In this document: positions 4,501 to 62,820 of the stretch, piece by piece
Numbering within the stretch: position 1 is the first letter of the stretch
How the letters are laid out: each line of letters begins with the position of its first letter
Source of the DNA: Torymus aiolomorphi
Taxonomy: Eukaryota > Arthropoda > Insecta > Hymenoptera > Torymidae
Direction: 5' to 3'
Assembly: GCA_036365515.1 (NCBI GenBank)
Contig: CM070877.1
Location: forward strand, 7,077,001 to 7,141,000
Length of the DNA stretch: 64,000 nucleotides
Made by a program: the position numbers and the translations under genes
The notes under the pieces: generated by a model
Told to the model about the DNA's origin: nothing
Seen by the model: the letters and a program-made list of their open reading frames with translations, nothing else
Database searches by the model: none

Positions 4501-4617
4501 ATGAGAAGCCCAGCAGGTATCCGAACGACGAATCTGATAGGCGTAACGGCAGCATCAAAAGAGGCCAATTTACCAGGAGTTTCAGCAATGCTGATGCGCC
4601 CACCGACGATAAAGTTG
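1526..4617 (+). CDS. rim: rim giant low-complexity exon 2 (about 1,030 residues)
   Basis: A single 3,092-base open exon. The acceptor TTTGCAG ends at 1525; the first base completes the split codon from exon 1 (ATA, Ile), and the donor GTAAGT at 4618 leaves one base that exon 3 completes. The protein is predicted disordered: early Cys/His/Pro-rich segment, many RRSRS-type basic-serine stretches, tyrosine-rich acidic runs, a Gln/His-rich tract at about 3897-3990 and a His-rich tract at about 4219-4260. The motif R-x-x-S-x-P occurs five times (3372-3389, 3461-3478, 3723-3740, 3834-3851, 4449-4466), three of them inside a repeated RNxSCPExRE-like unit. Basophilic-kinase or 14-3-3 contact is an inference. 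Without this exon the phase from exon 1 to exon 3 breaks, so it appears obligatory in this transcript unless another exon was missed. No globular domain seen. Confidence 0.8.
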
Positions 4618-5523
4618 GTAAGTTACATTCTAGCAGCATGAACAAGAAGATTGGCTCTTGTATTTTATCTTCAATACTTTTTGTGATGCATCTTGCGTTA
4701 GCGTACCGCAGATATTTTTATTTATAAAACATCTTTTCTCATTTAAATCTCTTTAAGGCGATGTGAAGTCCAAAATCAACTCAATTTCATTATTTAATAA
4801 ATTAATATTTGAACATTTATTTAGAAAAACAATTTTGTCAGGCGCTCCATATATGTAAATACTATGCTCAGAATTTTTTTGAGTTACTTTATTAGCATTT
4901 CCATCAGATATGCTCGTTTAAAAACTAGATCAAAATTATACAAATGCAGATTCCTACTTACCGGCATTGTGGTTTTTATTTAATTAATTAATTTCTAAGT
5001 ATCATTTTGGAAAAACAGGATTGCCAGGCACTCCGTATATGTAAATACTATACTCTAACATTTTTTTGAGTAATTCTATTAGTATTTGTATAAGATGTAC
5101 ACGTTCAAAAATTATGTCGGTATTTCACATCACCCTGTTTCTTATATCTTTTCGGCATTCATTACTGAAGGCCAATAGATTTAGAGTGGGTTCCGAATCA
5201 CTTATACTGCATCGCAAACATTCTCATATTTTCTTATTCTTTCTTGTTTGTTTACTCTATTCTCCATTATGCTTTTACGTTTGTGTTAAAACTATGACTA
5301 TCGTTTCTTTCTTGTACTCCATTTTAAATTTCTACACTGAGAAAAATCGTATCATAAAAATTACTATAATACATAGTACATGGCTTTAATAACGTTTTGA
5401 CAACTTCTATGATAGATAATGTAATTATTAGGTATAATTATACGCGTATTCTAGTCAATCTAATGTTTGGTCATTTTAAATTATTCTACTCTATTTTCAA
5501 TCTGTGATATCACTATTTTTAGT
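4618..5523. repeat. rim intron 2, 5' part: diverged direct repeat of about 110 bp
   Basis: Two related segments, about 4820-4928 and 5009-5117, share GAAAAACA, a CCAGGC/GCTCC-like box, TATATGTAAATACTAT and TTTTTTTGAGT in the same order and direction. The start of the intron also contains TTAAGGCGATGTGA at 4753, which matches the left terminus of the TTAA element at 21365, but I could not find its partner end, so it may be a solo remnant. No coding signal. Confidence 0.5.
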
Positions 5524-14487: not shown

Positions 14488-15637
14488 AAAATTTAGAACT
14501 GGAAATTTTCTTATTATTATTATATATATATATAAAGACAAATACAAATTTATCATAGCACATATTTATTCATGAATTACTGATATTTCTCATATTTTAA
14601 CAAAAGAAATGATGAATTTTTATTTGTTTTTATCTTTGCTTTTTGACGAAACTTCGTGAGCTATATGTGTTTATATATTTACGTACTGTATGCGAGTGTG
14701 TGTGTGTTTACGCGTATGTCTAAAATATGTGTCTTTTTTGCCTTAAGAAAAGTAGAACTTCTACTTTACTTTTTTAACTAAAACTATTATTTTTAAGTTA
14801 TCAAGGAAACTAAATGATTATTGACTTTTATTTCGTTCCAGACTTTAAAACATGTCGTATTTAGCTAAAAGTCATTGTAAATTGATTTTCTATATTAAAA
14901 ATGCCAATTCACAAAAGTAAAATAATAAAGTATAATAACTCTAAAATATAATAACTAAGAGAAATTAGTATCTCAATCACATTTCTAATACATACATTTT
15001 TTTAATATTTATTTTGCTGGAATTCTTGAAAAACAATTTTTTTTTCGCATTATAAAAATTTTAATGTGATTTAAATTTCTATAGAATTTAATGTGCTAGT
15101 CTTTAATATAGAAATTTTCATTACTAAATTTATATATACCAAACACACGCGCATGCACATCGATACAAACATGCACACACATACACAGAAAGTTTATTGT
15201 CAATTTAAAATTAGATATTTCACATTCATAAATGAATTGACTCTAAGTTATTCTTAGTATAAATTTCGTACAATATTGAAATACTTTTCAAGTAAATAAA
15301 TTCTGTATTATTGGTTCTAAGACCTTTTTCATTTTACTAATAAGTTATTTCTTATTTAAATGATATAAGATTCCTATTGATTACAATTTTTTTTAACGGC
15401 ATGCGCGGAACTCAGTTTTCGTGCTATTGTTTTGCGCGCGCGAAGCTCTTTTTCCTCGCACTCATCTGAGAGTGTGCGCGAAAAACAGAGCACGCGCAAA
15501 TAATTTTATTTTGCACACATTACGATTATTTTTGCTCAACTCGTGTGACTTTTAACAAACATTCCCCTCGTTGAGCGTGAAAGAGCTACTTTCTTTTACT
15601 GCATTGAAAAAAAGTTCGATACAGTACTTTCGAAATC

Positions 15638-15903
15638 TAAAATAGTGAAAAATCACTACCTCAATAGTTAAAAGTCGTGCACTTCTGAAATAGTGAATTT
15701 GCACTCCTGAATAGTGGGCATCTACTATTTTAGTAGTGAGTATTAACTTTTATAAAATAGTTAAATTTCGTTTTTTATAATAGTTAATATACACTACTTA
15801 AATAGTAAATGTAAATATTTCGGAGTGCATATATTCACTATTTCGGAAGTGCACGACTTTTAACTATTGAGGCAGTGATTTTTCACTATTTTACATTTAG
15901 AGA
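15638..15903. mobile_element. TAGTG-periodic foldback element, copy 1
   Basis: Arms about 15638-15712 and 15825-15903 are inverted complements (shared boxes AAAATAGTGAAAAATCACT and AGTTAAAAGTCGTGCACTTC). The loop repeats AATAGT/ACTATT every 20-30 bases. The right edge ends TTTAGAGAG, as in copies 2 and 3 (16092 and 16603). Confidence 0.75.
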
Positions 15904-16091
15904 GTAAGCAAAGAAAGTGATCTTGCACGGGCGCTTTGGTCGTACTTGCATTGCTCGGGTGATAATCAACATCCGTCTGTGAATTATCGTTTCGTGTACC
16001 GAAATCTACCGTTTTCACACTCCGTTCACAAAGTGTGATTTTATGCACGTTGTTGTGGGAAAATATTGTATATACGCATCGCGGACGCTCT

Positions 16092-16277
16092 CTCTTTAAA
16101 GTTGAGTTAGTGAAAAAACCACTAATTATTAGTTAAAATTACTTCACCGAATAATTAGTGAATATTCACTAATTCTTAGTGGAAATATACTTTTTCATGA
16201 GCGAGTATTCACTAATTCTACGGTGGAGGATTTTAACTAATAATTAGTGGTCTTTTCATTAATTCAACTTTAGAGAG
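16092..16277. mobile_element. TAGTG-periodic foldback element, copy 2 (variant)
   Basis: Arms 16092-16149 and 16222-16277 are near-perfect complements, beginning CTCTCTTTAAAGTTGA and ending TTCAACTTTAGAGAG. Internal units are variants of CACTAATTATTAGTG. Same architecture and same TTTAGAGAG edge as copies 1 and 3, but the internal unit has changed. Confidence 0.75.
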
Positions 16278-16500: not shown

Positions 16501-17382
16501 CGGGGTTAGATACACCTGTAAGGCCAAAAAAGCGTTTTTTGCGATTTTTTTAAAAGACAGGTTCATATATTTTGTTACCAATGTTTTAACATTCAATAAA
16601 TAAATTAAATTGAGTGAAAAATTACTATTTTACAGTGTAAAGTCGGGCACTGTCGAAATAGTGCGTATGCACTCCGAAATAGTGTATATGCACTTAATTA
16701 TCAGTGATACACAGTGGTACACTGATACATCTGTGTGTATACACTATTTGGGACTGCATATGTACTATTTCGACAATGTTCGACTTTACACTCTAAAATA
16801 GTGATTTTTTCACTGAATTTAATTTAGAGAGATACATATTTGAATATATTGAATTCATTTTTATATGGAAAAATAGCGATAACAGTCGACTTACAGCCGA
16901 TCTGTCAGAAATCCAAAAAAAAGTTGTGTTGCGGTGAGACAAGTTACTGATGACTGGATCATCACAGAAATAAAAAATCCTGTGAGACTAGTTAGATAAC
17001 TACTTTCGCTTGTATTTGAACGAAGAATTTAACCAATATTTTAATTTTCAACAAAATGGTGCATGTCTGAAAATTAAAATATTGGTTAAATTCTTCGTTC
17101 AAGTACAAGCGAAAGTAGTTATCTAATCTCACCGGATTTTTTATTTCAGATGATCCAGTCATGAGTAGTTTGTGTCAACACAACACGACTTTTTTTTGGA
17201 TCTCTGGCAGATGGGCTGTAACTCGACTGTTTATCGCTATTTTTCCATACAAAAATTAATTCAATGTCTTCAAATATGTATTTATTGAATGTTGAAACAT
17301 TGGTAACAAAATATATGAACCTGTCTTTACAAAAAAAAACGCAAAAAACGCTTTTTTGCCTTATAAGTGTATCTAACACCTG
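16501..17382. mobile_element. long palindrome whose left arm is interrupted by another element
   Basis: After removing 16603-16831, the left half (16501-17060) and right half (17065-17382) are inverted complements over roughly 320 bases, including the boxes GGTTAGATACACCTGTAAGG / complement at 17362-17380, ACAGGTTCATATATTTTGTT, and an innermost hairpin around 17060 with CGAAGAATTTAACCAATATT. A non-coding foldback element. Confidence 0.8.
16603..16831. mobile_element. TAGTG-periodic foldback element, copy 3, inserted in a palindrome arm
   Basis: Inverted arms about 16603-16675 and 16758-16831, with the same internal TAGTG boxes and TTTAGAGAG edge as copy 1. The opposite arm of the surrounding palindrome (17263-17300, reverse strand) runs straight from CATTCAATAAATA into CATATTTGAA, showing the empty site. 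The flanks 16600-16602 and 16832-16834 are both ATA, so a 2-3 base duplication (TA or ATA) is likely. Confidence 0.8.
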
Positions 17383-21364: not shown

Positions 21365-21572
21365 TTAAGGCGATGTGAGTGCCACCCGTTACAGACGATT
21401 GCAGGGACCCGTTTTACTCATTCAATTTTGAATTTTAAGAAAATATTGCTCTGGTATAGTTAACTATCAAATCTATAACGTGTCAGAGAGATTTTTTGTC
21501 AAAATTCAAAATTGAATGAGAAAAACGGGTCCCTGCATTCGTCGGTAATTGTGAGGCCTCGCATCGCTTTAA
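21365..21572. mobile_element. TTAA-bounded palindromic element C
   Basis: Bounded by TTAA at 21365 and 21569. Terminus TTAAGGCGATGTGAGTGCC and its near complement at the other end; arms of about 70 bases include GCAGGGACCCGTTTTACTCA and ATTCAATTTTGAATTTT and their complements at 21497-21540. Located in the rim intron before exon 7. Confidence 0.75.
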
Positions 21573-29989: not shown

Positions 29990-31700
29990 TTCGGTTCAAC
30001 TCGCTCACAATTCTACGCTGAGTTTATCGGAAAAAACGAAGGACTTATATCGATAGATTGTTTCCTGCTGTTTCCAATGATGCTATTGCTTTTTCTCCGA
30101 AATGCTTTCTTCCAGGCGAAAACTTCAGTTGAAAGTTCAGAACGATTTTCCTAAAAGCATACCATTTTTTTTTTCAAAATTATTTTTTTCATTCAAAAAC
30201 ACCAAAATTATAAATTGGAGAAATGAATGATTTAAAAGTATAATAAAATTGAAAATACTGCAGCGAGCGGCTGAGCGCGCTCTTCGGGCTGCGCTGGAGT
30301 GCGCTGTTACAGATGTTTTGTACTATTTCGTTGCCTGTAATACTATCATTTCACTGTATTAAACTGTTAGCACGCGTTAAAAGGCTAGAAATAAAACGAT
30401 TTTCAACATCAGAAACCTTCGAATAATATTCACTTATCAAGAAAGTGAAGAAATCTAAATTCGAGAAAAACCCTATATTCAATTAAGTTCAGATACAAGA
30501 AATTCGAAAATAAATAAACAATTAATGTGATTTGTAATTTAAGGTTGTATTGGCCGTAAGGTCGCTGCCAAAAGTTTGTGAATTCGATAAACTGCAATAA
30601 ATAATTGTATGCGATAATTGATCAAATTTAAATTCTTGTGGGTGATTCAGGAGTATAATATACGGATATAATAAGCTTTGAAAATTGAAAATCGAATAAA
30701 AATTGATAAAGTTCTGCTATTTTTTATAATTACAAAAACTGAGTCATTAAGTAAATTTTTAATACTGAAATCGACAAAGTGCCAAACTTTTAATTTTAAT
30801 TCGATTTTTAATTTCTAATCGGTTAGGAGCATTGAAAATTATCTATTTACCCTACATTATTTTGTTATTGTTGTTTTAATATTAGTCACTTAACTTTTGG
30901 CAGGGACTGTACGGGAAATAAACTGCAATAATAAATAATGCCGGATAAATAGTCGATTTTCAATGCTCCTGATCGATTACAAATCTTGACAGGAATATTA
31001 TGAGCTTTAGAAATTAAACATCGAATCAAAATTAAAAGTTTGGCACTTTACTTACTAAATTTACTCAATGACTCGATTTTTGTAACTATAAAAAATAACA
31101 GACTTTGTTAATTTTTATTCGATTTGCAATTTTTAAAGCTTAATATATTCGTATTATACTTCTGAATCATCCACAAGAACTTAAATTTGGTCAACCATCG
31201 CATACAATTAATTATTGCAGTTTATCGAATTCACAGATATTTGGCAGGGACCTTATAGCCAGTACATCCTTAAATATGAGGACTTTTACAAAAAATAATG
31301 TTTAGAAAATTGGTTATGTGATATATTTTAAGTATGAAACAACAAAATAGTGCAAACCATTTGTAACAGCGCACTTCAGCGCAGCGCGGAGAGCACGCCC
31401 GGCCGCTCACCGAAATCTTTTCAATGTTATTACTTTTAAATCCTTCATTTCTTCAACTTCAAATTTTGGTGTTTTATAGTTTAGGACTTTTACTTTTGAA
31501 TGAAAAGATTTATTTTGAAAAAAAAAATGGTATTCTTTTAGGAAAGTCGTTCTGAACTTTCAACTCAAGTCTTCATCTGGAAGAAAGCATTTCGGAAAAA
31601 AGCGTAATACCATCAAATCTATTGATATATATACTTTGTTTTTGTTTTTTTTTTCGAAAGACTCGGCACATGATTGTGAGCGAGTTAAACCGAGCGTATT
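29990..31700. mobile_element. 1.7 kb foldback element with a second palindrome in its loop
   Basis: The left arm 29990-30335 and right arm 31340-31700 are inverted complements with about 75-85 percent agreement by eye, including AACTCGCTCACAAT, GAAATGCTTTCTTCCA, GTTCAGAACGA and a GC-rich end with GCGCTGTTACA. The loop contains the TTAA element at 30539-31273. No coding region seen. Confidence 0.75.
30539..31273. mobile_element. TTAA-bounded palindromic element nested in the 30 kb foldback
   Basis: TTAA at both ends, terminus TTAAGGTTGTATTGGC with complement GCCAGTACATCCTTAA, then arms of about 200 bases (boxes GAATTCGATAAACTGCAATAA and GTGATTCAGGAGTATAATA and complements). Inner hairpins at 30690-30830 pair with 31020-31140. 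The terminus is a variant of that at 23992, so both belong to one family. Confidence 0.75.
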
Positions 31701-38172: not shown

Positions 38173-38815
38173 CTCGTATGTCGTCAAGGATCTTGTCGGG
38201 AGCCGCTCCAAGAGAGAAGTCTGACGCGTCCGTGGACAAAATCAGTAGCGCGGTGGGCGAGAGATGGCTAAGCATCGCGATGGCTGCGAGGCTGGCTTTG
38301 CATTTAGTGAAAGCTTCCTCGCATTCCGGTTTCCACTAAATTTTTCATTTGTCGTTCTTTTCAGAGTTTCGTGGACAACCGTACAGAGGAGCCTGGATCT
38401 CCGCGGCCTTCGGCACACAACGACGATAAAAGTTTATCATAGCGAGGAAGCGTCTCAGGTCCTTGAATGTGTCTGGTTTTGGGTAAGCCTGAACACATTG
38501 GACTCGTCCAGGTGGAGATCTGCAGCCTTCTCCAGATATAAGATAGCCCACGAACGTGGCTTCAGCTTGTCCGAGTGCGCATTTGCTGGGGTTGATGCGC
38601 AATCCGTGCTGTCTGAGCCTGTGTAGGACTATGCGAAGGTGACGTAGGTGTTCCTCGGGTGACTCGGACATGATGATTATGTCATCTTCATAGCAGAAAA
38701 CGAAATCTAAGTTACGGAACAAAGCGTCAATGTATCGTTGGAAAGTTTGTGTCGCCTTACATAAGCCAAAAGGCATTACATGAATTTTTGGTTCTATGTT
38801 CTCACACTCACACAA
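38171..38815 (-). pseudogene. Ty3/gypsy-type reverse transcriptase fragment, broken
   Basis: Read on the minus strand from 38815. The part in frame covers RT palm to connection: MPFGLCKATQTFQRYID, then the catalytic box as FCYEDD where the family normally has Y-(V/I/L)-DD, so one residue is changed, then HLRIVLHRL, GLRINPSKC, FVGYLIS, LRRFLAMINFYRR and APLY. A frameshift follows near 38345; the next segment (about 38160-38340) reads as the start of the RNase H region (EEAFTKCKASLA, LSTDASDFSLGAA). No gag, protease, integrase or LTR nearby. In the family this domain copies genomic RNA into cDNA; here it is a dead fragment trapped inside a foldback. Confidence 0.9.
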
Positions 38816-39250
38816 GAATCATTTTTATCGCACTAGTATCGAAAAGTACTATCTTGACGTTGCTGTGAACACATCTCAAAAGTTTTAGAGTGAGCGATAT
38901 CTTAAAATCCTACTGACCAGTATCTAAACTGGAATCATATTCTGCTTCACCGCGTCAAAATACATGGGAATATCATAATCTAGTCCATCGCGCAAACCAG
39001 CTTTTTATTTTGTGGGCTTGTGTAATCTGAACCAACAATATAATAAGATAATCCCGACTAATGTACGACAAAAATATCATTTCTTTTCAATGTATAAAAT
39101 GGAATCGAAAATATATAAAGGGGATATCGAAGCTAATCACAGATTCCTACATCGAATTTTGCATTATTTAAATTCAGTTATAAGTTTTTTGAAATTATCG
39201 CAGTCATCCAATGTTTATATTGAGTTAACGAACGCCGGATGACAAATATA

Positions 39251-39404
39251 GGCATGGTGTGGTTTGTGCACATAAGAATTATGCAGATATTTATTGTGCA
39301 CACTTTAGCATTGGTGTATATCTATATCTATGTGTATACTCCAATGCTAAAGTGTGCACAATAAATATGTGCATAATTCTTATGTGCACAAACCACACCA
39401 TGCC
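39251..39404. mobile_element. 154-bp perfect palindrome with 8-bp target duplication (hAT type), copy 1
   Basis: Starts GGCATGGTGTGGTTTGTGCA and ends with its complement; arms of about 75 bases. The flanks 39243-39250 and 39405-39412 are both CAAATATA, an exact 8-bp duplication, the hallmark of hAT transposons (family knowledge). A homologous copy is at 58260. Confidence 0.85.
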
Positions 39405-40170
39405 CAAATATAATTAATGAAAATCAAAAATTGAATAAAAACAATAGAAAATACGAGAATGTCGATAAGTATGTAATTCCAGATACGCTCCGATACCCCC
39501 TTAAATATTTTATAAGTATTTTAAATTATTTTTATAATTGACAATTTGATTACAAAAGGATGGAATAATTCACCATGATGCGAGACATTCACGACGACAA
39601 TACCGGGCTCGCAACTTAATGACATACGTTTCCAATTAGCTACATCATCTATATCTTAGGAAGTTTCCAAAAAGTCTTAAATATGTAGATTTTATACTAT
39701 GAAATGTGTGTAATAGTAGTTTTTTATATCTAGGGCGTAAAAAGGAATTTTATTCTCCGAGTGGTAATCACCGCGTACGAGGTCGGAAACCATTACGTCT
39801 GAGATGCAAATAATAATGATCGTAACTCGAGCGTAGAATTTGCACCCTCGTAAAACTCGAAGTGTAAAATTACATTTTACGCTCTTGTTACGAAACATAC
39901 TATTTTTAACGCTATAAGTATACGAGAAACTCGACTATTCGTGCCTGTTTTCAGTGGCGCGCACACGTTCTGACAAGTGCTAAAAAGCACTGCTTTACTT
40001 TCATTAAACTAGCATTAAAACTATTAAAATTAAAACTCGAAAAGCTTTTTGTAACTCGTTAAAAAAAGTATAGTATGTTCAATACATTCTGCATAATGTT
40101 TGCTTTTTTACTTTTGTAAATCTTTTTCTGGTTGAGGCACTTAAGTATGCACAATCATTACTAATTGAAT

Positions 40171-40832
40171 TTAAGGGGGTACTACAGTTGAAAATTTTTT
40201 TTTTTTGGATTCACCTAAAAAATATAAATTTTGATCAGTAATAATTTTTTTTTAAATATATTAAACTAATATAGTTTATTTTTGATGAAATAGGCCCTAC
40301 CAAAGGTCTGTAAACACCCATTGATCCAAAGATATTGAGATTTTGAAATTTGTATCCTGCGTAACCTACAGGCCGAACCATTTGATATTTTTTAATGGGA
40401 TACGGGCCAAAATCTTTGATTTTTATATCTCCTTTGACTGAAGCTATTCGCATCCCTTAATTTTTTCAATTAATATTTTTGGCTTTAAAAATATTAATTG
40501 GAAAAATTAAGGGATAGCTTCAGTCAAAAGAGATATAAAAATCAAAGATTTTGGCCCATATCCCCATATATTTTTGATATTATTTTTTATCTATATATCT
40601 ATCTATCTATCTATTAAAAAAATCAAATGGCCTGTAGGTTACACAAGATACAAATTTCAAAATCTCAATATCTTTGAATCAATGGGTTTTTACAGACCTC
40701 TGGTAGGGTCTATTTCATCAAAAATAAAGTATATTAGTACAATATATATAAAAAAAATTATTACTGATAAAAATTTATATTTTTTAGGTGAATCCAAAAA
40801 AAAAAAATTTTTTAACTGTAGTACCCCCTTAA
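40171..40832. mobile_element. 662-bp TTAA-bounded near-perfect palindrome
   Basis: TTAAGGGGGTACTACAG at 40171 and the complement ending TTAA at 40832. Arms of about 310 bases pair almost throughout (GGTGAATCC, AAGGTCTGTAAACACCCATT and TGTAGGTTAC boxes); the centre near 40480 pairs AATTAATATTTTT with its complement. A TATC tetranucleotide run at 40590-40614 interrupts one arm. Open frames over the arms mirror each other and are not genes. Confidence 0.85.
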
Positions 40833-51348: not shown

Positions 51349-51525
51349 TAGACTTATACTCATAGACTGCGCGCTCCCGTATAAAGCGCTGAAGCCGGGC
51401 AAGAGAGAGAGGGCAATTCGCCTTGTTAAGACCAGCGTCAGCGTCCCTCGCGGCCAAAATTCGATCTGCTTATTGAAGGATAAACACAGCTGATTAGCAT
51501 GAGCGGTATACGAACCAAAGATTAT

Positions 51526-52393
51526 TTAAGGTAGTTCTCCTCGGACTCCCTAGTCAAAGCAGTGCTAAATGTAGAAGTTACCTAAAATTTAAAAAAACCA
51601 TAGTTGTAATGTGATTTATTTATTTAAAATGATAGAGATAGTCCATGTATTATAAATAAAGCGTATTTAACATGACTAAAATAACTTTTTTCACAAAATG
51701 ACGATTTTCTAGAAACTAGATATCGTCACCCTATTAAAAAAAATCACGTGAGAACGCGCGTGAGTTCTCACGTGAGGTTTTCAACGATATTCTCACGTGA
51801 GTACTCACGTGACTACTCACGTGATTTTTTTTAATAGGGCACTACAAACAATTGTTGATAAATCACTGGAATCTATTTTGTTTCTCAACCGATTTTAGTT
51901 TTCAAGGTCTCAATTTGCTCCTTAAGAAATTTCATGGGGACTTGCCGAAGGAAAAATTAAAAATTATTCAAAACTCAGAAAGTTATAGATAATTGTTCAT
52001 AAATTCATGTACGTCGTTAAAACAAAATATTCTTTTAATTGGTCATAACTTTCTGAGTTTTCAATAATTTTTAATTTTTCCTTCGGCAAGTCCCCATGAA
52101 ATTTCTTAAGGAGCAAAATGAGATCTTGAAAACTAAAATTGGTTGAGAGACAAAAAAGATCCCAATGATTTATCAACAATTATTTGTAGTGACAATATCT
52201 AGTTTCTAAAATATCGCCATTCTGTGAAAAAAGTTATTTTAGTCATGTTATAAATACACTTTATTTATCATACATTGACTATCTCTATCGTTTTAAATAA
52301 ATAAATCACATTACACTATGGTTTTTTTAAATTTTAGGTAATTTCTACATTTAGCACTGCTTTGACTAGGGAGTCCAAGGAGAACCACCTTAA
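51526..52393. mobile_element. 868-bp TTAA palindrome with proven empty site
   Basis: Ends TTAAGGTAGTTCTCCTCGGA / complement with TTAA at 51526-51529 and 52390-52393. Arms of about 330 bases pair through ACTCCCTAGTCAAAGCAGTG and TGCTCCTTAAGAAATTTCAT to a centre near 52010. The opposite arm of the host palindrome (53300-53325) reads straight through with a single TTAA, so the TTAA duplication is exact. This is piggyBac-type behaviour; no transposase is present. Confidence 0.88.
51729..51839. mobile_element. 111-bp MITE with five CACGTG boxes
   Basis: CCCTATTAAAAAAAATCACG at the left and its complement at the right. CACGTG at 51745, 51769, 51794, 51806 and 51818, the last three spaced 12 bases apart. 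The pairing arm at 52180-52200 lacks it, giving the empty site GTCACTAC and a CA (or CAC) duplication. Termini resemble CCCTACTGAAA of the 44511 element. Confidence 0.85.
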
Positions 52394-52426
52394 TTAAAAA
52401 ATAAAATAAGTAGTGATCCGATGAAC

Positions 52427-52487
52427 TGCATTGTGGCACGCCGGAGTCGGTAACGTACCCGCAGCCATTAAAAGAAGAAGAAGAAGA
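52427..52487 (+). mobile_element. 61-bp retroposon fragment with GAA-repeat tail and 15-bp target duplication
   Basis: AGTGATCCGATGAAC occurs at 52412-52426 and again at 52488-52502, flanking a segment that starts TGCATTGTGGCACGCCGGAG and ends ATTAAAAGAAGAAGAAG. The opposite palindrome arm (53262-53276) has a single copy with no insert. A long duplication plus a simple 3' tail indicates target-primed reverse transcription, so it is the 3' end of a SINE or LINE. Confidence 0.85.
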
Positions 52488-52496
52488 AGTGATCCG

Positions 52497-53088
52497 ATGA
52501 ACGTCTTAAAATCATGTATTGATTTGTCTGATATTATCAGATATATTGGCAATGGAACAAGGCCTTATGTGGAAGGCGAAAGAGTTTATAAGGCTAATCA
52601 TATAATATTTTGTGGGTTAGCCAAAGAAAGTAATGATTGCTCAGCAGAGATAATAGCACTGTGCCTAAAAACGTCAGGTTTACAAGAATCTCCTCATGAA
52701 ATAAGAGTAAAGATCTCTTCAAATGTATGTGCTGATGAAAATATCATTCATTAATTGTGTGTGCTTTTGTAAAGCTGGTTTTTTGGAAAAATGCAAACAC
52801 TCTGTTGCAGTTTTAATTCACCTTCACAAGTCAGTTCAAAATTATTGTTTTGTTTATATTCTTAATGATGAGTAAATATTTAAAGCATTTATTTATAAAA
52901 TGTATTAATTCTTTTAAGAACTCCATCATGTATTATTCAAGATGCATCTTGCACGGATTTAAAACAACAGTGGGGTAAGCTAAAACAGACAGCTTCAAAA
53001 ATGTATGAAGTTGTAGAATTGAAGCATTTTTGCAACTTGAAGAAAACAGATTCCAAATTCCTCAAAGTGAAATGTTCTTGTAAATAAC
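52497..53088 (+). pseudogene. SWIM zinc-finger protein gene fragment, degraded
   Basis: Reads MNVLKSCIDLSDIIRYIGNG, PYVEGERVYKANHIIFCGLA, AEIIALCLKTSGLQE and PHEIRVKIS, then a +1 frameshift near 52745. In the new frame it shows a clear SWIM finger, C-F-C-KAGFLEK-C-K-H (Cys 52762, 52768, 52792; His 52798), followed by SVAVLIHLHKS. After stop-filled sequence it resumes at about 52945 (CTDLKQQWGKLKQTASKMYE and VVELKHFCNLKKTDSKFLKV). I recognise the SWIM motif; the full protein is an unnamed arthropod type. It has frameshifts and stops, so it is not functional. Confidence 0.75.
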
Positions 53089-53269
53089 CCGACGTTTTTA
53101 GGCACAGTGCTATTATCTCTGCTAAGCAATCACTACTTTCTTTGGCTAACCCACAAAATATTATATGATTAGCCTTATAAACTCTTTCGCCTTCCACATA
53201 AGGCCTTGTTACATTGCCAATATATCTGATAATATCAGACAAATCAATAAATGATTTTAAGACGTTCAT
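53078..53269 (-). pseudogene. inverted copy of the SWIM-gene N-terminal fragment
   Basis: Minus strand from ATG 53269: MNVLKSFIDLSDIIRYIGNV through AEIIALCLKTSG, differing from the plus copy by a few residues (Ser/Asn, Leu/Ser, Val/Gly). It ends where the palindrome arm ends (about 53078); the frame then runs into loop sequence. It is the pairing arm of the composite foldback. Confidence 0.75.
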
Positions 53270-53581
53270 CGGATCACTACTTATTTTATTTTTTAATTAA
53301 ATAATCTTTGGTTCGTATACCGCTCATGCTAATCAGATGTGTTTATCCTTCAATAAGCAGTTCGAATTTTGGCCGCGAGGGGCGCTGCCGCTGGTCTTAA
53401 CAAGGCGAATAGCTGGGGTCATGCTCTCTCGTTCTAATGGGCGCTTAGGGGGGGAGAGTGTTTCCCTCAACGCCCTCTCCTCCTCTGCCGTCACCATTTC
53501 CCCTCTACCCCCACCACTGTAGGTGTACGAGAGAGATAGCATGACCCCGCGCCACCATCTTGAGCTTCACACCGCCCGTAA

Positions 53582-53771
53582 GGGAGGATCCAGACTGGCG
53601 CTGCGCGTACGATCCGCGGATGCGCGCTGCGCGTCCAACCAATGGCAGCTTGGCTCGAGCGGAATCGAGTAGAAAGAAAGATGATCTAGTCCGCTAGAGC
53701 CAAGCTGCTATTGGTTGGATGCGCAGCGCGCATCCGCGGATCGTACGCGCAGCGCCAGTCTGGACTCTCCC
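53582..53771. mobile_element. Harbinger-type palindromic MITE (TAA flanks) 1
   Basis: GGGAGGATCCAGACTGGCGC at the left, GCGCCAGTCTGGACTCTCCC at the right, flanked by TAA at 53579-53581 and 53772-53774. Arms of about 85 GC-rich bases. Confidence 0.82.
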
Positions 53772-53797
53772 TAAGAGCGCGCAGTCTATGAGTATAA

Positions 53798-53990
53798 GGG
53801 CCTTCACACAGCTCTGAGGAACAGATATAAAGAACAAGAATAACATGGGTTAGTATATCTATATATACGAGGAACAGCGAGATACACAAAGAATAAGAGT
53901 CTTATTCCTTGCTGTTCTTCGTATATATAGATATATAACCCCTGTTATTCTTGTTCTTTTTATCTGTTCCTCAGAGCTGTATGAAGGCCC
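53798..53990. mobile_element. Harbinger-type palindromic MITE (TAA flanks) 2, empty site visible
   Basis: GGGCCTTCACACAGCTCTGA and its near complement at the right; TAA at 53795-53797 and 53991-53993. The other arm of the host palindrome reads GACTTATACTC (51351-51361), the complement of the joined flanks with one TAA. This shows a 3-bp TAA duplication, the PIF/Harbinger signature. Confidence 0.88.
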
Positions 53991-54000
53991 TAAGTCTATG

Positions 54001-54165
54001 CACCGCCACCGTTGTAGTTCGCGCGTTTCACTACGTTCCAATTTTCTTAAGAGTTCTACCTTACCGATCCAGCATCCATATCATGCTGGATCGGTAAGGT
54101 AGAACCCTTAAGAAAATTGGAATATAGTGAAACGCGCGAACTACAACGGTGGTGGTGGAGCGTGG
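54001..54165. mobile_element. palindromic MITE with a smaller palindrome at its exact centre
   Basis: CACCGCCACCGTTGTAGTTC and its complement at 54138-54160; arms of about 48 bases. At the centre the sequence AATTTTC-TTA-AGAAAATT is split by a 58-bp palindrome (54050-54107, AGAGTTCTACC.../complement) flanked by TTA on both sides. Confidence 0.75.
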
Positions 54166-54191
54166 CGTGGAAGCTTGTGGAACGCCCCTTA

Positions 54192-54537
54192 GGGAGATTT
54201 AATTGTACATAAGCGCCGTTCTGCTCTACTCTGCTCTGCTCTGTTCTGTTCTAACCCGGTCCAATTTCAGTTCAGTTCCGTTTGTAAGCGATTTTCCCTT
54301 TACTTGTTTCAGAATTCTGAACGGAATTGAGCGGAACGGAGCAGAGCAGAGCAGAGCAGAGCAGAGCAGGGCCCTTTCTACATATGTGTGTTCTGTCTGT
54401 TCTAGACAACTTCTCTCTACATCTGCCTCTGTCTTACATAAACGGAACAGATCTATTTGTATTTGTCGGGAACACACAGAACACACAGAACACACATATG
54501 TAGAAAGGCCCCAGAGCAGAGCAGAGCGGGACGGCGC
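54192..54537. mobile_element. GCAGA/TCTGC-rich Harbinger-type palindrome, copy 1
   Basis: TTA flanks at 54189-54191 and 54538-54540. Runs of TCTGCTCTGC on the left pair with GCAGAGCAGA on the right. It includes TAAGCGCCGT near the left end and ACGGCGCTTA at the right. An inverted-orientation relative is at 57771. The nested palindrome 54370-54513 interrupts its right arm. Confidence 0.78.
54370..54513. mobile_element. GGGCCCTTTCTACATATG palindrome, copy 1
   Basis: GGGCCCTTTCTACATATGTG at the left and its complement at the right; the interior has ACACAGA/TCTGTGT-like repeats. Inserted in the GCAGA-rich element. A diverged copy is at 62693-62820. Confidence 0.75.
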
Positions 54538-54540
54538 TTA

Positions 54541-55023
54541 GGGACTCGCCACAAATGGGACCGTGCCGTCGCCGCCCGGGTGCCGATGCCATAGCGTGTC
54601 GAGCGCTTTTCGAATCGGAGTGCGCCGTCTAAGAGTATTGCTTCCGTGCTCCAAGCCCTTTTGGACAAGTGAGTTTGCCATCTGCAATCTTTGTTTATGA
54701 CGAAAAAAATCAAGCATAGCCTGGATTGCTCCGAAATATTCTGCAGGTAAAATCATTGTTAAATTATTGTATATTTTGTTAATGTCAACATTATGTTAGT
54801 TTTACGATGTTATAACACCTTTTTTTTTGTTTAATACTGTTTAATAATATGCTTAATTTTTTTCGTCATAAATAGATTGCAGATGGCAAACTCACATGTC
54901 CAAAAGGGCTTGGAGCACGGAAGCAATACTCTTAGACGCAGCACTCCGATTCGAAAAGCGCTCGGCACGCTATGGCACCGACACCCGGGCGGCGACGGCA
55001 CGGTCCTATTTGTGGCGAGCCCC
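54541..55023. mobile_element. 483-bp Harbinger-type palindrome (TTA flanks)
   Basis: GGGACTCGCCACAAATGGGA and its complement; TTA at 54538-54540 (shared with the previous element) and 55024-55026 (shared with the next). Arms of about 180 bases include GCCATCTGCAATCT and CCAAGCCCTTTTGGAC and complements. The minus-strand frames over it mirror each other. Confidence 0.85.
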
Positions 55024-55026
55024 TTA

Positions 55027-55280
55027 GGAGCCTTCTACAACCTCACGTAAAAACTGTGCGTGCACGCAAATTTCCCTAGACTTCACTAGAATAAGAAGTG
55101 CAACCAACCTTGATTAAAAATAAAAACTGTTTTCTAATCACAAACAAACAATTCTTGGATGGTTTTCTGGAGACAAAGTGTGGCAATTTTTAGTCAAGGT
55201 TGGTTGCACAACTAGCTCTAGCAAAATCTAGTGAGATTTGCGTGCACGCACAGGTTTTGCGGGAGGTTGTAGATGGGGCA
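55027..55280. mobile_element. 254-bp Harbinger-type palindrome (TTA flanks)
   Basis: GGAGCCTTCTACAACCTCAC at the left and a complement ending GGTTGTAGATGGGGCA; TTA at 55024-55026 and 55281-55283. CTACAACC at the termini is shared with 55334 and with the transposase-bearing 56884 element. Confidence 0.83.
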
Positions 55281-55283
55281 TTA

Positions 55284-55330
55284 GGGTGAATGTACATAAG
55301 CGCCGCGCTGCGCTGCGCCGTCTTATGCCC
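55284..55330. mobile_element. 47-bp remnant related to the GCAGA-rich element
   Basis: Starts GGGTGAATGTACATAAGCGC, matching the left end of the 54192 element, and ends GGCATAAG-type complement. Probably a minimal or internally deleted copy in the chain. Confidence 0.55.
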
Positions 55331-55333
55331 TAA

Positions 55334-55467
55334 GGGAGTCTCTACAACCTTGCGCGTGCGTGTGCGCTCGCGTGTATAAGGTATACCTATATATAGCGCT
55401 CTCCTATATATAGGTATACCTTATACACGGCGAGCGCACACTCACGCGCAAGGTTGTAGAGACTCCC
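55334..55467. mobile_element. 134-bp Harbinger-type palindrome
   Basis: GGGAGTCTCTACAACCTTGC and its complement; arms of about 63 bases nearly perfect, centre TATATAGCGCTCTCCTATATA. TAA on the left, TGA on the right (one change from a duplication). Confidence 0.8.
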
Positions 55468-55470
55468 TGA

Positions 55471-56606
55471 TCACATAACCGCGTACGATCGCGTACGTCT
55501 GCGTACAACCGCGTCCGACGTTAAGGAAGAATCTAGTAATTTTCGCTGTTGCCAACAGCGGCAATGTCAGTGCAACAACTAGTACTTTCGAGGAACAGAC
55601 CTACACGGAGAGAAAATTTTCAGTAAAAATTACAAAAAGTTCGATAATTTTTACCGAACTTCACGGTACTATGGTAACAGACTGACATTTTTGTAAATTT
55701 TACAGAACAGTTCGGTAATTTTTCTAAGCACTTACTTTTTACTGAACCGTTCCGTAATTTTTACTCTTTTTTGAGTTATAAATTTTATAGAATATGGCGA
55801 ATATGGTAATTAAAAAAAATTTATCTATTTATGGGAATAATTTATATTAATCGCACTTATCGCCATTTTAATAGTTGGGAATCCAGTGTTGCTTTCCTTG
55901 TGGTGTAAGATAAGATGTAAATATGCACGCCGCTTTTACATAGGAAATTTTTATATCTAAAGTCCTAAACATATCTAACTACTATACTACACATAACCTA
56001 AGTAATGCCTTATATTTCGCAATACGCAAACGCTTACATATGAACTTTAGAAACTCAGCGGACTTATATACTAACTGAGGAAAGTCGTGGTCACTTGCGA
56101 GTTTCAATATTCGCCATCTACCGGTTGTGCACGATAATTCTCGCTGAAATTCAATAACGCGCATGCGCACAACAGTCAACAGCGCCACCGCGCGTTACGC
56201 CAACGAAAACTTCCAAACCTTTTCTTAAAAGTTACTGAACAGTTCGGTAATTTTTACTGAAAATTCTATAAAAAGTATAGAAAGTCAAGTAAATCCGCTC
56301 ATTTTGGCAGTCTGTTACCACAGTACCGAAAAGTTCAGTAAAAATTGCGGAACTTTTTGTAATTTTTACTGAAATTTTTCTCTCCGTATACGTATACGAA
56401 AGTCGGCTACTACACCAACGACAGCAGACATAAACAAGCAAGCGTTACTCCGATCTACTACACTTCGTGTGAGTAGGTCTGTTCCTCGAAAGTACTAGTT
56501 GTTGCACTGACATTGCCGCTGTTGGCAACAGCGAAAATCACTAGATTCTTCCTTAACGTCGGACGCGGTTGTACGTAGACGTACGCGATCGTACGCGGTT
56601 ATGTGA
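55471..56606. mobile_element. foldback hosting a 785-bp insertion
   Basis: TCACATAACCGCGTACGATC at the left and its complement at the right; arms of about 130 bases (CGTTAAGGAAGAATCTAGT and GCTGTTGCCAACAGCGGCAA boxes). The element at 55604-56388 lies between the left arm and the loop. Confidence 0.8.
55604..56388. mobile_element. CACGGAGAGAAAATTT element, TA flanks
   Basis: CACGGAGAGAAAATTTTCAG and complement CTGAAATTTTTCTCTCCGTA; TA on both sides. Terminal arms repeat TTCGGTAATTTTTACTGAA-like units (left 55615-55760, right 56230-56380). Termini are a variant of the CACGGAAAAAAATTT family at 20564 and 47238. No transposase; the interior is unrelated to those copies. Confidence 0.8.
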
Positions 56607-56617
56607 TTAGGGCATTA

Positions 56618-56880
56618 GGGAAGGGCCACATATGTGAATACGCTTGCGTACGAATCCGCATAGCGCAGTGGAGTCACTAGGAAAACTTTGTAATGCCAAC
56701 TTTGTAATGCCAGGAAAGTCACTATGGTTTCGTGAGGGACGTCTATTGTTGAGAGGGTTCACGAAGTCATACTGACTTTCCTGTACAGTTGGCACTAGCG
56801 AATTTCGCTTAGGCCGTCTAGTGATTCCGCTGCGCCGTACGCATTCATGCGCAAGCGTATTCACATATGTGGCCAAAGCC
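56618..56880. mobile_element. 263-bp Harbinger-type palindrome (TTA flanks)
   Basis: GGGAAGGGCCACATATGTGA and its near complement; TTA at 56615-56617 and 56881-56883. An inner inverted pair (CCAGGAAAGTCA and complement) forms a second stem. Its right TTA is the left flank of the transposase-bearing element. Confidence 0.82.
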
Positions 56881-56883
56881 TTA

Positions 56884-57770
56884 CGGGCTGCCTACAACCA
56901 CCGATTTTTTTTTGGCGCATGCGTAAAAATCACCAGAGGGGGTTAGGGATGTATGAAGAGCCAACTGTAAAAAATTAACCCTAAATATTGTTTTCGCTGA
57001 ACACACCTAAAAAGATCAAAACATGACTACATGAGTTTCTGCTTTCTAACATTAACAAAGAGTCAAGTGTTGGAAGAAGATTAGTGATTTAGAGATTTTA
57101 TTATAAGAAGATTTTTCAATTAATGTAAAATGGATGATCATAATCTGGTTGTTGAAGTACTGGAAATAAGCATTAATTACCTTCGATTAATACAATTACT
57201 AAGAAATCGAAAAAAAAATTCAGAAGATGGTGGTGCAAACCATTAATTAGAAATAATTACTTAACAGGATATGGTGCTTATGAGAGAGTTTTTACGTATT
57301 TTAAGATGAATGACGAAGAAGAGTTCATGAATTTTACTAGAATGAATGTACAAGCATTTATGTATTTATGTAATTTAGTTAAAGATAGAATAACAAAATA
57401 TAGTCGGAGAGTACCAATACCTCTCCAGAGTTAAGACTGTGTATAACGCTAAAGTAAGTAAATATAATAAATGCAAGTTTAGATTGAATGTTAATTTACA
57501 TATATTTTTACAGCTATTTAGCACATGGCGATTGTGTACAAAAAAATGCATTGTTTTATGCAATTGATGTTTCAACTATTCACCAAATCATTCCAGACTA
57601 GGTTTCAGTTTAGAAAGCAGAAACTCGTATTCTTTGATTTTTAGGTGTGTTCAACGCAAACTCAATATTTAGGGTTAATTTTTTTACGATTGGCTCTTCT
57701 TACATCACTAACCCTCTCTGGTGATTTTTGCGCATGCGCAAAAAAAAAATCGGTGGTTGTAGACAGGGCA
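56884..57770. mobile_element. PIF/Harbinger element with transposase relic
   Basis: CGGGCTGCCTACAACCACCG at the left, complement ending GGTTGTAGACAGGGCA; TTA on the left and TAA on the right. Arms of about 170 bases include GCGCATGCG, AATCACCAGAG and AACCCTAAATATTG boxes. The interior carries the N-terminal part of a Harbinger transposase (57222-57600). CTACAACC termini link it to the smaller palindromes at 55027 and 55334. Confidence 0.88.
57222..57600 (+). pseudogene. PIF/Harbinger transposase N-terminal fragment
   Basis: RRWWCKPLIRNNYLTGYGAY, then FKMNDEEEFMNFTRMNVQAF and YLCNLVKDRITK are typical of the helix-rich region before the DDE domain (ALP1-like proteins). A one-base frameshift near 57430 precedes ELRLCITL; a 60-base intron with GTAAGT and TTTTACAG (57454-57513) then joins to YLAHGDCVQKNALFYAIDVS, TIHQIIPD and a stop. 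The catalytic DDE part is missing, so it cannot be active. A possible start is the ATG at 57130. The enzyme excises and inserts elements at TWA trinucleotides (family knowledge), which matches the flanks of the elements around it. Confidence 0.85.
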
Positions 57771-57981
57771 TAAGCGCCGTTCCGCTCTGCTCCGTTCTGC
57801 TCTGCGCTGCTCTGCTCTGCTCCGTTCCGCTCTAGTCCGAACCAGAATTGTGAAACAAGAAAAGGGAAAATCGCTTACAAACGGAACTGAACTGAAATTG
57901 GACCGGGTTTGAGCAGAACAGAACAAAACAGATCAGAGCAGAGCATAGCAGAGCAGAGCAGAACAGCGCTTATATACATTG
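57771..57981. mobile_element. GCAGA-rich palindrome, copy 2 (opposite orientation)
   Basis: TAAGCGCCGTTCCGCTCTGC at the left and GCAGAACAGCGCTTA at the right. The central segment (GGGAAAATCGCTTACAAACG, ACTGAACTGAAATTGGACCG) is the reverse complement of the centre of the 54192 copy. Confidence 0.78.
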
Positions 57982-58259
57982 ACTCTTACACGGGAGCGAG
58001 CAGTCTATCTCTTGTTACGACCCGAGTCGGGATCTTTTAGTCGAAAGGTATTTCTACAATGGTCGCTAAGTTGACCAGAATAAGAATGTGGAATTCGTTC
58101 GTTCAATTAAGTGCTGAAGCGCATGGAGTCGCGGGAAGTTTGAAATAAAACTCGAACACGAGAAGATTAAAGTTAAGTTGGAATTTATTGAATTAAAGTA
58201 ACTTGTATTAATGACTTTAACAATTATTCGGTTAACGTGTTCGTGACTCTATATAACTC

Positions 58260-58401
58260 GTTTATGCACATACTGATTGTGCACATATTAATTGTGCACA
58301 CTTTAATATTGGTATATATCTATATATATAGATCTGTACCAATGCTATCTGTGCACAATAAATATGTGCACAATCCTTATGTGCACAAACAAGAACATGC
58401 C
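58260..58401. mobile_element. hAT-type palindrome, copy 2, inside the solo LTR
   Basis: Shares the TTGTGCACA, CACACTTTA, ATTGGTATATATCTATAT and CATGCC boxes with 39251-39404. TATAACTC at 58252-58259 and 58402-58409 is an exact 8-bp duplication. The left terminus is eroded compared with copy 1. Confidence 0.83.
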
Positions 58402-60355: not shown

Positions 60356-62455
60356 ATGCGTCAAAATTTTTTGCGAACCACTTGGAGTTTTCAAATAATA
60401 CCAAGAAGGTATTATAAAAACAACCAAGTACGCGTGAGATTTGCCCCAAGTCCAACAGGTACATATTTAACATTTTTTTACTTTAATCTTTCTCAGTTTT
60501 TTTATTACTACATTTCTATTTTACAGTCTTGTATATTTTTACATCATTCATATTATTTTTATGTCTATGACTCTGTAATAAAATTGATTATTGTCTATAT
60601 TTTAAAAATTATAAGTTTAAATTTATGCCAATAAGTAAATTTATTTAATAATAGTCTGGTAAATTGGTTAAAAGATGCTTTGTTTTAGATACATAGCATT
60701 ATTTTTATTATTATATTGTCATTTCATACTTATCCATTTATCCAATATATTTGTTACATAATAATAGCAATGTATTGAAATTCATGTACATTTTTACTTG
60801 AGCATCAGCAATTCTTATTTTTTTTTTTTATTGGAGGTGTTAAACATCCAACTGATTTCTCTGCTCATGTTCTTATGTGATATTTTGGCAATCTGGATGT
60901 TAATATTTTACTGTTACGATTATTTTTTTTAATATTTGTTACTTTTTGAACTTTCTACAATGGGAACTAATTTTATTCTATCTGTTGGACGTTTACAACA
61001 TCCTTTTTAATTTTTTCAAAATTAACACTTCTTTATCTTTATATTTTTTAGGTTATTTACATCTAGGTGGTTTAAGAACAGCACTTTATAACTATTTGTT
61101 TGCTCGAAAGCATAATGGTTGTTTTATTATAAGAATTGAGGATACAGATCAAAAGAGGATTATTCCAGATGCAATAGAAAAACTTCATGATGATTTAATA
61201 TGGAGTGGAATTATCCCAGACGAAGATCCCATTCGAGGTGGGCCAGCTGGTCCTTATATTCAATCCAAACGACTTGATCTTTATAGAGAACATATCAAAA
61301 TTCTTGTTAATAATGGTTCAGCTTATAAATGTTTTTGTTCTGAGCATAGACTAGGTGTATTGAGAAAAGAAGCATTAAAGGAGAGGCAGGTTCCAAAATA
61401 TGATAATCGATGTCGACATTTAAGTAATGAAGAAATAAAAGAGAAACTTAGAAGAGGAGACACATATTGTATTAGATTTAAGGTAAAGATTTTTAATGTA
61501 ATAGAGGTATTAAATTATATTTAAGAGGATGACATAGTTAGTTTATTATAAAATGGAAGGTGGCTGTATCCACTATGTTTTTATTATATTGATTAAAAAA
61601 TTCTTAACTTTTGGGATTTTTGAGACTTGTGCGTATTTTGTAATGTTTAATTATTTCTGGAAATTTAAATTCAATCAATTAATTGCTGAAAAAACCTTGA
61701 AAACATTACACAATGAACTATAAAATAACAAAATGAAAAAATAATTTCCACCATACCCTTGTCAAAAATACCACTATTGCTTCCGGATAAAAAACGTGAA
61801 TGTGGTATTTTCAGCCTGGGTATGGTGAAAAATAGTATAAGCACCACGGGGGGGAAATTAGCCAGGCCACAGCTCGTATAAATTGACACCAGAGCCCTTT
61901 GGCGAAGCAATTTTTTTCCTCCCTAGATGCATAATATTCTAGTTTTTTTTTTTTAATTTCAAGACTTGTCTGTGCCTAATACATGAATTATAATTTTTTT
62001 TCTAAAATTTGAGTCAAATCGATTAATTATTCGCAAAGTTTAAAAAACTAACTGAAGCGATTTTGGCATGGACATTCACTTTATTATTTTTAAGTATGAT
62101 GATAATATAAAACTTTCAAATAAATACGTATTGTTATAGATTTTCTGGAAATACCATTTTAAAAAACTTTTAAATAATATTACCAATAATCTATAATTAA
62201 ATAAAAATAATAGGTTACTTCACTTCAATTTGTATTTTTGTAGCTTTTACCAACATTAGAACCAATCAGTGATCTGATTTATGGCAATATTGTTTATGAT
62301 GCTCAAAATGAAGGGGATCCAATTATTTTTAAAAGTGATGGTTTTCCAACTTATCATTTAGCTAATGTTGTTGATGATCATCTTATGAGTATTTCACATG
62401 TCTTCAGAGGAATAGAATGGCAAATTTCTACCCCTAAACATTTACTTTTATACAA
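60356..62455 (+). CDS. EARS2: mitochondrial glutamyl-tRNA synthetase, first three exons (gene continues past window)
   Basis: Exons 60356-60458, 61052-61482 and 62244-62455, joined with phases 1, 0 and 2 by GT-AG introns. The enzyme charges tRNA with glutamate (Glu, and often Gln tRNA first) in mitochondria. The first 25 residues, [20 protein letters not shown]..., are basic with no acidic residue, as in a mitochondrial presequence. Then the class I core: VRFAPSPTG split by intron 1, then [17 protein letters not shown] (HIGH-type motif as HLGG), [11 protein letters not shown], and [19 protein letters not shown]. Exon 3 has [19 protein letters not shown] and [20 protein letters not shown], the next conserved blocks. 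The KMSKS loop and anticodon-binding part must lie beyond 64000. The last exon leaves two bases. I saw no continuation in 62456-64000. Confidence 0.94.
61775..61945. mobile_element. TACTATTTT-family modular hairpin repeat in EARS2 intron 2
   Basis: Shares GTGGTATTTTCAGCCTGGGTATGGTGAAAA-type sequence (in pieces) and TTTTTTTCCTCCCTAGATGC with the copies at 48.4-49.0 and 63.4-63.6 kb. Diverged; boundaries uncertain. Confidence 0.55.
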
Positions 62456-62692: not shown

Positions 62693-62820
62693 GGGGTCTT
62701 TCTACATATGACCTGTTCTGTGTGGTCTGTGTTCCGTTTATATAAGAATAAGACAGAGACAGACGAAGTGAGAACAGACATATGTAGAAAGACAGAACAG
62801 CCATATGTAGAAAGGGCCCT
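62693..62820. mobile_element. GGGCCCTTTCTACATATG palindrome, copy 2
   Basis: GGGGTCTTTCTACATATG at the left and CATATGTAGAAAGGGCCC at the right, with ACAGA-rich interior; diverged homologue of 54370-54513. Confidence 0.7.

Follow-up and report, generated by a model that had tools for sequence, protein, structure and literature searches.

Abutting palindromic elements, probably of PIF/Harbinger type, share target triplets in a 3.8-kb stack from Torymus aiolomorphi

The 64-kb stretch of Torymus aiolomorphi DNA analysed here (64,000 nucleotides; assembly GCA_036365515.1, contig CM070877.1, positions 7,077,001 to 7,141,000; hereafter the window) contains a cluster of thirteen units, named E1 to E13, in which palindromic transposable elements, probably of the PIF/Harbinger type, lie directly against one another and share the triplets at their junctions, which are TTA or TAA (TWA) and once TGA. 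We interpret this cluster, with a probability of about 0.68, as a stack of non-autonomous, TWA-specific PIF/Harbinger elements whose own ends recreate the sequence context preferred for insertion. It represents a behaviour already known for elements of this kind, in a long and clean form, and not a new system.

The region 53200-58400 was read directly, and inverted repeats were mapped both there and across the whole window. Over 3.8 kb (54189-57988) each base can be assigned to one of the abutting elements E4 and E6 to E13, with E5 nested in E4 (Table 1). E4 begins past TTA 54189 and is interrupted at its right subterminal TTA 54538. Six junctions are shared, with adjacent elements standing one triplet apart as in multiple insertion: E6/E7 (TTA 55024), E7/E8 (TTA 55281), E8/E9 (TAA 55331), E9/E10 (TGA 55468), E10 and the left end of E13 (TTA 56607), and E11/E12 (TTA 56881), so that in this parse 5/6 shared triplets are TWA and 1/6 is TGA. 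The sequence-only reading had described about ten head-to-tail palindromes ending at 57981, with neighbours holding a trinucleotide in common and each landing in the duplication of another. The abutment stands over 54189-57988, as does the sharing of triplets at the six junctions (five TWA, one TGA), but E1 and E2 share none, being separate insertions upstream of the chain with a 20-bp spacer of other DNA between them, E3 shows no clear duplication, and the chain runs on to the TTA at 57986-57988.

Table 1. Units of the cluster and associated features, in window coordinates
Feature	Position	Strand	Description
E1	53579..53774		near-complete palindrome; TAA, GGGAGGATCCAGAC..., TAA; exact TAA duplication; terminal mismatches 2/20; GGG ends
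E2	53795..53993		near-complete palindrome; TAA, GGGCCTTCA..., TAA; exact TAA duplication; mismatches 1/20; GGG ends
E3	54001..54157		palindrome CACCRCCACCGTTGTAG; no clear termini or duplication
E4	54189..54540	+	TTA, GGGAGATTTAATTGTACA-TAA-GCGCC ... GGCGC-TTA; GAGCA-rich arms
E5	54367..54514		palindrome within the E4 GAGCA array; CAG, GGSCCTTTCTACATATG..., CAG
E6	54538..55026		TTA, GGGRCTCGCCACAAAT..., TTA; sits in E4 at its right subterminal TTA; exact TTA duplication; mismatches 2/20
E7	55024..55283		CTACAACC motif; TTA ... TTA; exact TTA duplication
E8	55281..55333	+	47 bp, mini-element or remnant resembling E4; TTA, GGGTGAATGTACATAAGCGCC...TGCCC, TAA; matches ends of E4 and E13
E9	55331..55470		palindrome with CTACAACC motif; TAA, GGGAGTCT..., TGA
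E10	55468..56609		1.1 kb, TCACATAACC-ended; TGA ... TTA; 140-bp arms 98% complementary; inner inverted repeat 55599-56393
TTA GGGCA TTA	56607..56617	+	interpreted as the E13 left end, severed from the body by E11 and E12; end of GGGCA-TAA-GCGCC type
E11	56615..56883		TTA, GGGAAGGGCCACATATG..., TTA; exact TTA duplication; mismatches 4/20; outer 7 bp poorly matched
E12	56881..57773	+	CTACAACC motif; ~170-bp inverted arms; TTA ... TAA; contains transposase relic
Transposase relic	57130..57601	+	N-terminal part of a transposase, probably Harbinger, split into exon-like pieces that differ in frame; no catalytic domain
E13	57771..57988	-	main part and outer terminus of the other E4-family copy, opposite in orientation to E4; outer TTA 57986-57988

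Exact TWA duplications flank five elements, namely TAA for E1 and E2 and TTA for E6, E7 and E11. At least six had been claimed earlier; of these, the E4 duplication at 54192 requires an end at 54537, which is a subterminal site. The flanking triplets are mismatched in E9 (TAA/TGA), E10 (TGA/TTA) and E12 (TTA/TAA), as they are in E4 (TTA/TAA) if its outer end lies at 55333, and likewise in E8 if that is a complete element. Point changes could jointly explain the mismatches of E4, E9 and E10 if the E4/E9 and E9/E10 joints were once TTA. E5 carries GG ends and an exact CAG duplication (54367), which is less certain because CAG recurs in the surrounding GAGCA array; a relative of E5 at 62693-62819, 8 kb away, is 76-95% identical over pieces and includes a 23-bp near-tandem repeat.

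In scans of the window, the combination of TWA duplication and GG ends was confined to the cluster. Both ends begin GG in E1, E2, E6, E9 and E11; E7 and E12 are variable in their outer 8 bp, and E10 begins TCA. A scan for identical TWA triplets beside 20-bp inverted ends, allowing at most 4 mismatches, returned 32 rows, with 21 in a simple repeat (5.5-6.1 kb), 7 elsewhere and 4 in the cluster. All four cluster rows (E1, E2, E6, E11) begin GG, as against 0/7 elsewhere, one of which (39116-39504) begins AGGGG. When the scan was run over all 64 triplets, both ends began GG in 5 of 126 rows, the same four TWA rows and E5 (CAG), all inside the cluster. Twenty shuffles of fifty-base blocks gave 1-7 TWA rows each and 0 with GG at both ends, and in the other-triplet controls the number of rows for each triplet pair ranged from 4 to 28 among those listed. 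In E7, E11 and E12 the outer 7-8 bp are poorly matched between the two ends and the inner cores are well matched.

E4 and E13 belong to one family and lie in opposite orientations, with 90% identity over 147 bp. Read inward, the ends of this family consist of TWA, GGG or GAG with a variable-length stretch, CA, and then TAAGCGCC or TAAGCGCT; the exceptions are TA in place of CA in the right end of E13 and an extra base inside TAAGCG-CGGC in the right end of E8. In the right end of E4 the inner TAA holds E6 to E8, and in the left end of E13 it holds E11 and E12; given the opposite orientation of the two copies, both were hit at the same family end. This shared-site parse of E13 depends on TTA GGGCA TTA being its cut-off left end, an assignment that we infer; alternatively, the motif would be a footprint left when some other element was excised. 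Two readings of E8 are open to choice, a 47-bp mini-element with both end types or a left-end remnant followed by the outer right end of E4, which may be TTATGCCCTAA at 55323-55333. A TA duplication for the TAAGCGCC elements (E4, E8 and E13) was considered and rejected, as TWA and then GGG or GAG stand outside the TAAGCG core at five ends (both ends of E8, the left end of E4, the right end of E13 and its left end assembled across E11 and E12; the right end of E4 was compared in its inner part only).

E7, E9 and E12 form a second group, defined by the motif CTACAACC; at 6/6 of their ends (by eye) it stands exactly 8 bp inside a TNA triplet. The regular presence of that triplet 8 bp outside led us to reject CTACAACC as the true element end with longer duplications. 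The proposal that these three form a parent-derivative set is consistent with the motif, but BLAST at E <= 0.01 gave no further similarity among them and hence no sign that the small members are internal deletions of the larger one. Nor is E12 an autonomous parent, because its transposase-like part stops before the catalytic domain.

The Harbinger transposase fragment reported in E12 proved real, as an N-terminal relic at 57130-57601. With X at the breaks, a protein of Nasonia vitripennis is matched at 61% by two of the pieces; for the first piece, which starts at 57130, the match to P0003 was made by eye only. The Nasonia vitripennis protein leads to the Phymastichus coffea protein P0041, to which the relic is 57% identical over 107 residues, and the region of P0041 that follows the aligned part passes the Pfam cut-off for DDE_Tnp_4 (27 vs 24.8 bits). 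Both species belong to Chalcidoidea. The relic itself passes no Pfam cut-off, giving a sub-threshold match to HTH_Tnp_4 only, and against solved structures it returned 8 weak rows (best E 0.26). Among viral contigs the transposase alignment found no relative (120 pattern-matching stretches, none confirmed) and the E6 end sequence had no match; a 14-base pattern occurring in at least 120 viral stretches was taken as chance and not used. Taken together, the TWA duplications, the GG-ended inverted repeats and the likeness of the relic to a protein that passes DDE_Tnp_4 bear out the original assignment to PIF/Harbinger, which on these sequence grounds is likely to be right.

The sequence around the target triplets suggests how such a stack could grow. 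In TTA orientation the reconstructed pre-insertion sites are CTC-TTA-CGG for E1, GAC-TTA-TAC for E2 and CCC-TTA-CAC for the E4-to-E13 block, whose left flank may be the end of E3, and the inner site of E4 and of E13 is CGC-TTA-TGC. C precedes TTA at 5/5 of these sites (by eye) compared with 12.2% of TTA sites outside the cluster; four of the five are independent, since E4 and E13 contribute a single family site between them. These are too few for a consensus, and target preference as the cause would accordingly have to be read from few sites. Extended target preferences around the triplet, from 9 bp in plants to 15 bp in vertebrates, are described for PIF/Harbinger elements in the excerpt available (PMC2836001).

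In the mechanism that we favour, the members would be Tourist-like miniature inverted-repeat transposable elements (MITEs) and deletion derivatives of the PIF/Harbinger type, and related transposases would cut at T-W-A, favouring C before TTA. Most of the elements end GGG/CCC, and each insertion would leave two TWA copies, one of them beside the CCC or GGG of the inserted element. With CCC at its end, an element puts C in front of its right TTA, so such sites would be kept or created with each insertion. The target would thereby stay usable or improve, and later elements would enter the same triplets. The E4/E13 family would supply an additional inner TAA near its end (GGGCA-TAA-GCGCC), the one hit in both copies, and an autonomous element of the CTACAACC type elsewhere would presumably mobilise the members. 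The self-targeting put forward in the sequence-only reading is a plausible fit to known behaviour. The claim that each new element lands in another's duplication is upheld by the six junctions and by simulation against random insertion, but for one selected window only.

In that simulation eleven insertions were placed at random TWA sites. Across the whole window they gave a mean of 0.03 insertions into existing element ends, with a maximum of 2 in 20,000 runs. When insertions were confined to the cluster with 5 host TWA sites, the probability of 6 or more end hits was 0.001 in random order and 0.008 with the AT-rich E10 and E12 placed last, and it was still lower with 10, 20 or 40 host sites. 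On these figures, region-level clustering alone is a poor but not impossible account. The count of internal sites is relevant here. Nine members (E1, E2 and E6 to E12) contain 180 internal TWA, none of which holds another TWA element in this parse (the inner repeat of E10 excluded); 22 are in E6, 67 in E10 and 69 in E12, with 0 to 8 in each of six GC-rich members.

Several observations weigh against a preference for element ends. The E7/E8 junction and the left side of E11 read GCA TTA and the E10/E13 junction reads TGA TTA, without the C. The plant PIF target consensus is CWCTTAGWG, which has no exact occurrence in the 64-kb window. The scarcity of internal TWA in several GC-rich members would in itself push insertions towards the ends, an effect for which the simulation allows. 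If the 5 TWA joints only are counted, the probabilities with 5 host sites rise to 0.007 in random order and to 0.043 with the AT-rich elements last, a weak result, and the single window was selected for looking odd. The mismatched duplications require point changes or another explanation. As far as the excerpts go, a barley survey found Harbinger preference only for short TAA (PMC5738225), and a study in yeast reports avoidance of GC-rich DNA by mPing, together with a lack of hot spots in plants (PMC10288884).

Alternatively, the cluster may have arisen by ordinary nesting in a tolerated "safe haven", in which many kinds of element accumulate because insertions there are harmless; GC-rich palindromes nearly free of internal TWA would force insertions onto ends, and no end preference would be required. 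Palindromes of other families are abundant in the window, some of them nested or abutting (16502-17380, 51413-53413), the internal TWA counts of the six GC-rich members and the most lenient local null (0.043, from the TWA-only count) lean the same way, and a carrot MITE study, in the part available, describes nested, clustered insertions together with the safe-haven idea (PMC3695323). We nevertheless judge this explanation unlikely, as confined runs reach 6 or more end hits in no more than 0.1% (random order) or 0.8% (AT-rich last) of cases, and as the 180 internal sites of the nine members hold no TWA insertion in this parse while the homologous inner TAA of E4 and E13 was hit twice.

Rearrangement offers a different route to the same anatomy, through excision footprints (TTA GGGCA TTA, TTA TGCCC TAA), template switching during gap repair, or movement of a composite unit with E4 and E13 at its borders. 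It would account for the mismatched triplets, the 5-bp TTA GGGCA TTA remnant, the 47-bp E8 with both kinds of E4-family end, and the inverted E4/E13 copies at both sides. Five elements nonetheless retain exact TWA duplications, four of them with at most 4/20 mismatches between inverted ends, and Harbinger excision is usually precise where studied, according to the passage available of PMC2836001; we therefore regard rearrangement as improbable. An assembly artefact joining separate palindromic loci is hardly credible, for although palindromic sequence is difficult to assemble, one would not expect mis-joins to yield base-exact triplet junctions or nested elements that split others at duplications.

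Beyond the stack of TWA-specific elements that we favour, a second proposal is that GGG/CCC ends together with TTA constitute a preferred, self-renewing target across insect Harbinger families, with chains growing by preferential attachment and elements confined to stacks. We offer this tentatively and rather doubt it. Were end targeting found genome-wide, several insect Harbinger families would treat each other's ends as targets, which would help to account for dense MITE clusters and could seed satellite-like arrays; the single locus serves as a clean example and a starting point for a count.

A close precedent is a DNA transposon that inserts twice or more into the target duplication it has itself produced, as reportedly described by McGurk and Barbash in 2018 and cited in PMC12628747 and PMC12368964. 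As there, a newcomer occupies the duplicated target of an earlier element and the result is tandem, whereas here at least four families share triplets in place of one tandem element. The part available of a review describes how target duplication preserves a site for further insertions (PMC12628747), and the excerpt of a cod study cites insertion into the own target duplication for class II transposons (PMC12368964). Nested and same-site MITE insertions are reported for carrot, citing maize and rice and Jiang and Wessler 2001, in the available text of PMC3695323. These plant cases likewise involve MITEs entering MITEs at or near the same site, but they appear in that text as single nested or neighbouring cases, whereas nine elements abut here (E8 counted, E4 and E13 being one family) in an insect. 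The suggestion that the cluster is worth describing as a system cannot be sustained in the sense of novelty, given that insertion into others' duplications, nested MITEs and extended Harbinger targets are already in print in the portions available of PMC12628747, PMC12368964, PMC3695323 and PMC2836001. None of the matches listed, represented by titles and abstract beginnings, describes such chains in a wasp, and the word Harbinger is absent from those listed for chalcid or parasitoid wasp MITE literature, in the same partial records.

In comparison with PIF/Harbinger (PHIS) elements and Tourist-like MITEs generally, the cluster shares the TWA duplications, the short GG-beginning inverted repeats, the DDE_Tnp_4-related relic and the predominance of small non-coding members. 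It differs in its near-complete long-armed palindromes, in the poorly matched outer 7-8 bp of E7, E11 and E12, and in the TGA at E9/E10. The NuwaI and NuwaII groups of PHIS have CWG and C-TNA-G duplications, according to the excerpt of PMC4482050. The CAG duplication of E5 with its GG ends, and the C-TNA context at E9/E10, which resembles C-TNA-G, recall these groups, but the likeness is in triplets only, no transposase of either group was seen (no search aimed at one was made), and CAG recurs around E5.

Several further features were observed in and around the cluster. The string AGTCTAT(G) flanks E2 on both sides (53783-53790, 53992-54000) and recurs to the right of the chain at 58001-58008 (by eye, approximate); it may be an older host repeat. 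A palindrome at 53416-53556, directly upstream of E1 (by eye) and of the form GGGGTCATGCT...AGCATGACCCC, contains GGCGCTTAGGG, the same string as the E4/E6 joint. Just upstream, a second nested palindrome complex at 51413-53413, with arms at 51413/53413, encloses 51522-52397 (interrupted by 51729-51839) and 52390-53300/52467-53297.

Elsewhere in the window, three palindromes within 1.2 kb (15625-15906, 16092-16277 and 16601-16826) have similar ends of approximately CTCTYTAAA (by eye), the last of them sitting inside the larger palindrome 16502-17380. A 154-bp palindrome at 39251-39404 has an apparent 8-bp duplication, CAAATATA, and its ends resemble the GTGCACA-rich palindrome 58257-58393 (by eye); it is enclosed by the TAA-flanked pair at 39116-39504, with ends AGGGGATATCG and AGGGGGTATCG (mismatches 4/20), possibly a TWA element. 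Palindromes with TTAA or TTAA-like ends at 21365-21572, 30537-31275 and 40171-40832 possibly represent another transposon class with TTAA targets. An open frame at 38345-38818 on the minus strand resembles a fragment of a Gypsy-type reverse transcriptase (by eye), and one at 60904-61524 resembles part of what we take to be the mitochondrial glutamyl-tRNA synthetase gene (by eye). For the large reading frame 1488-4727 there are 34 relatives; nine of them carry an organism name, and these are from what we take to be bees, ants or parasitoid wasps.

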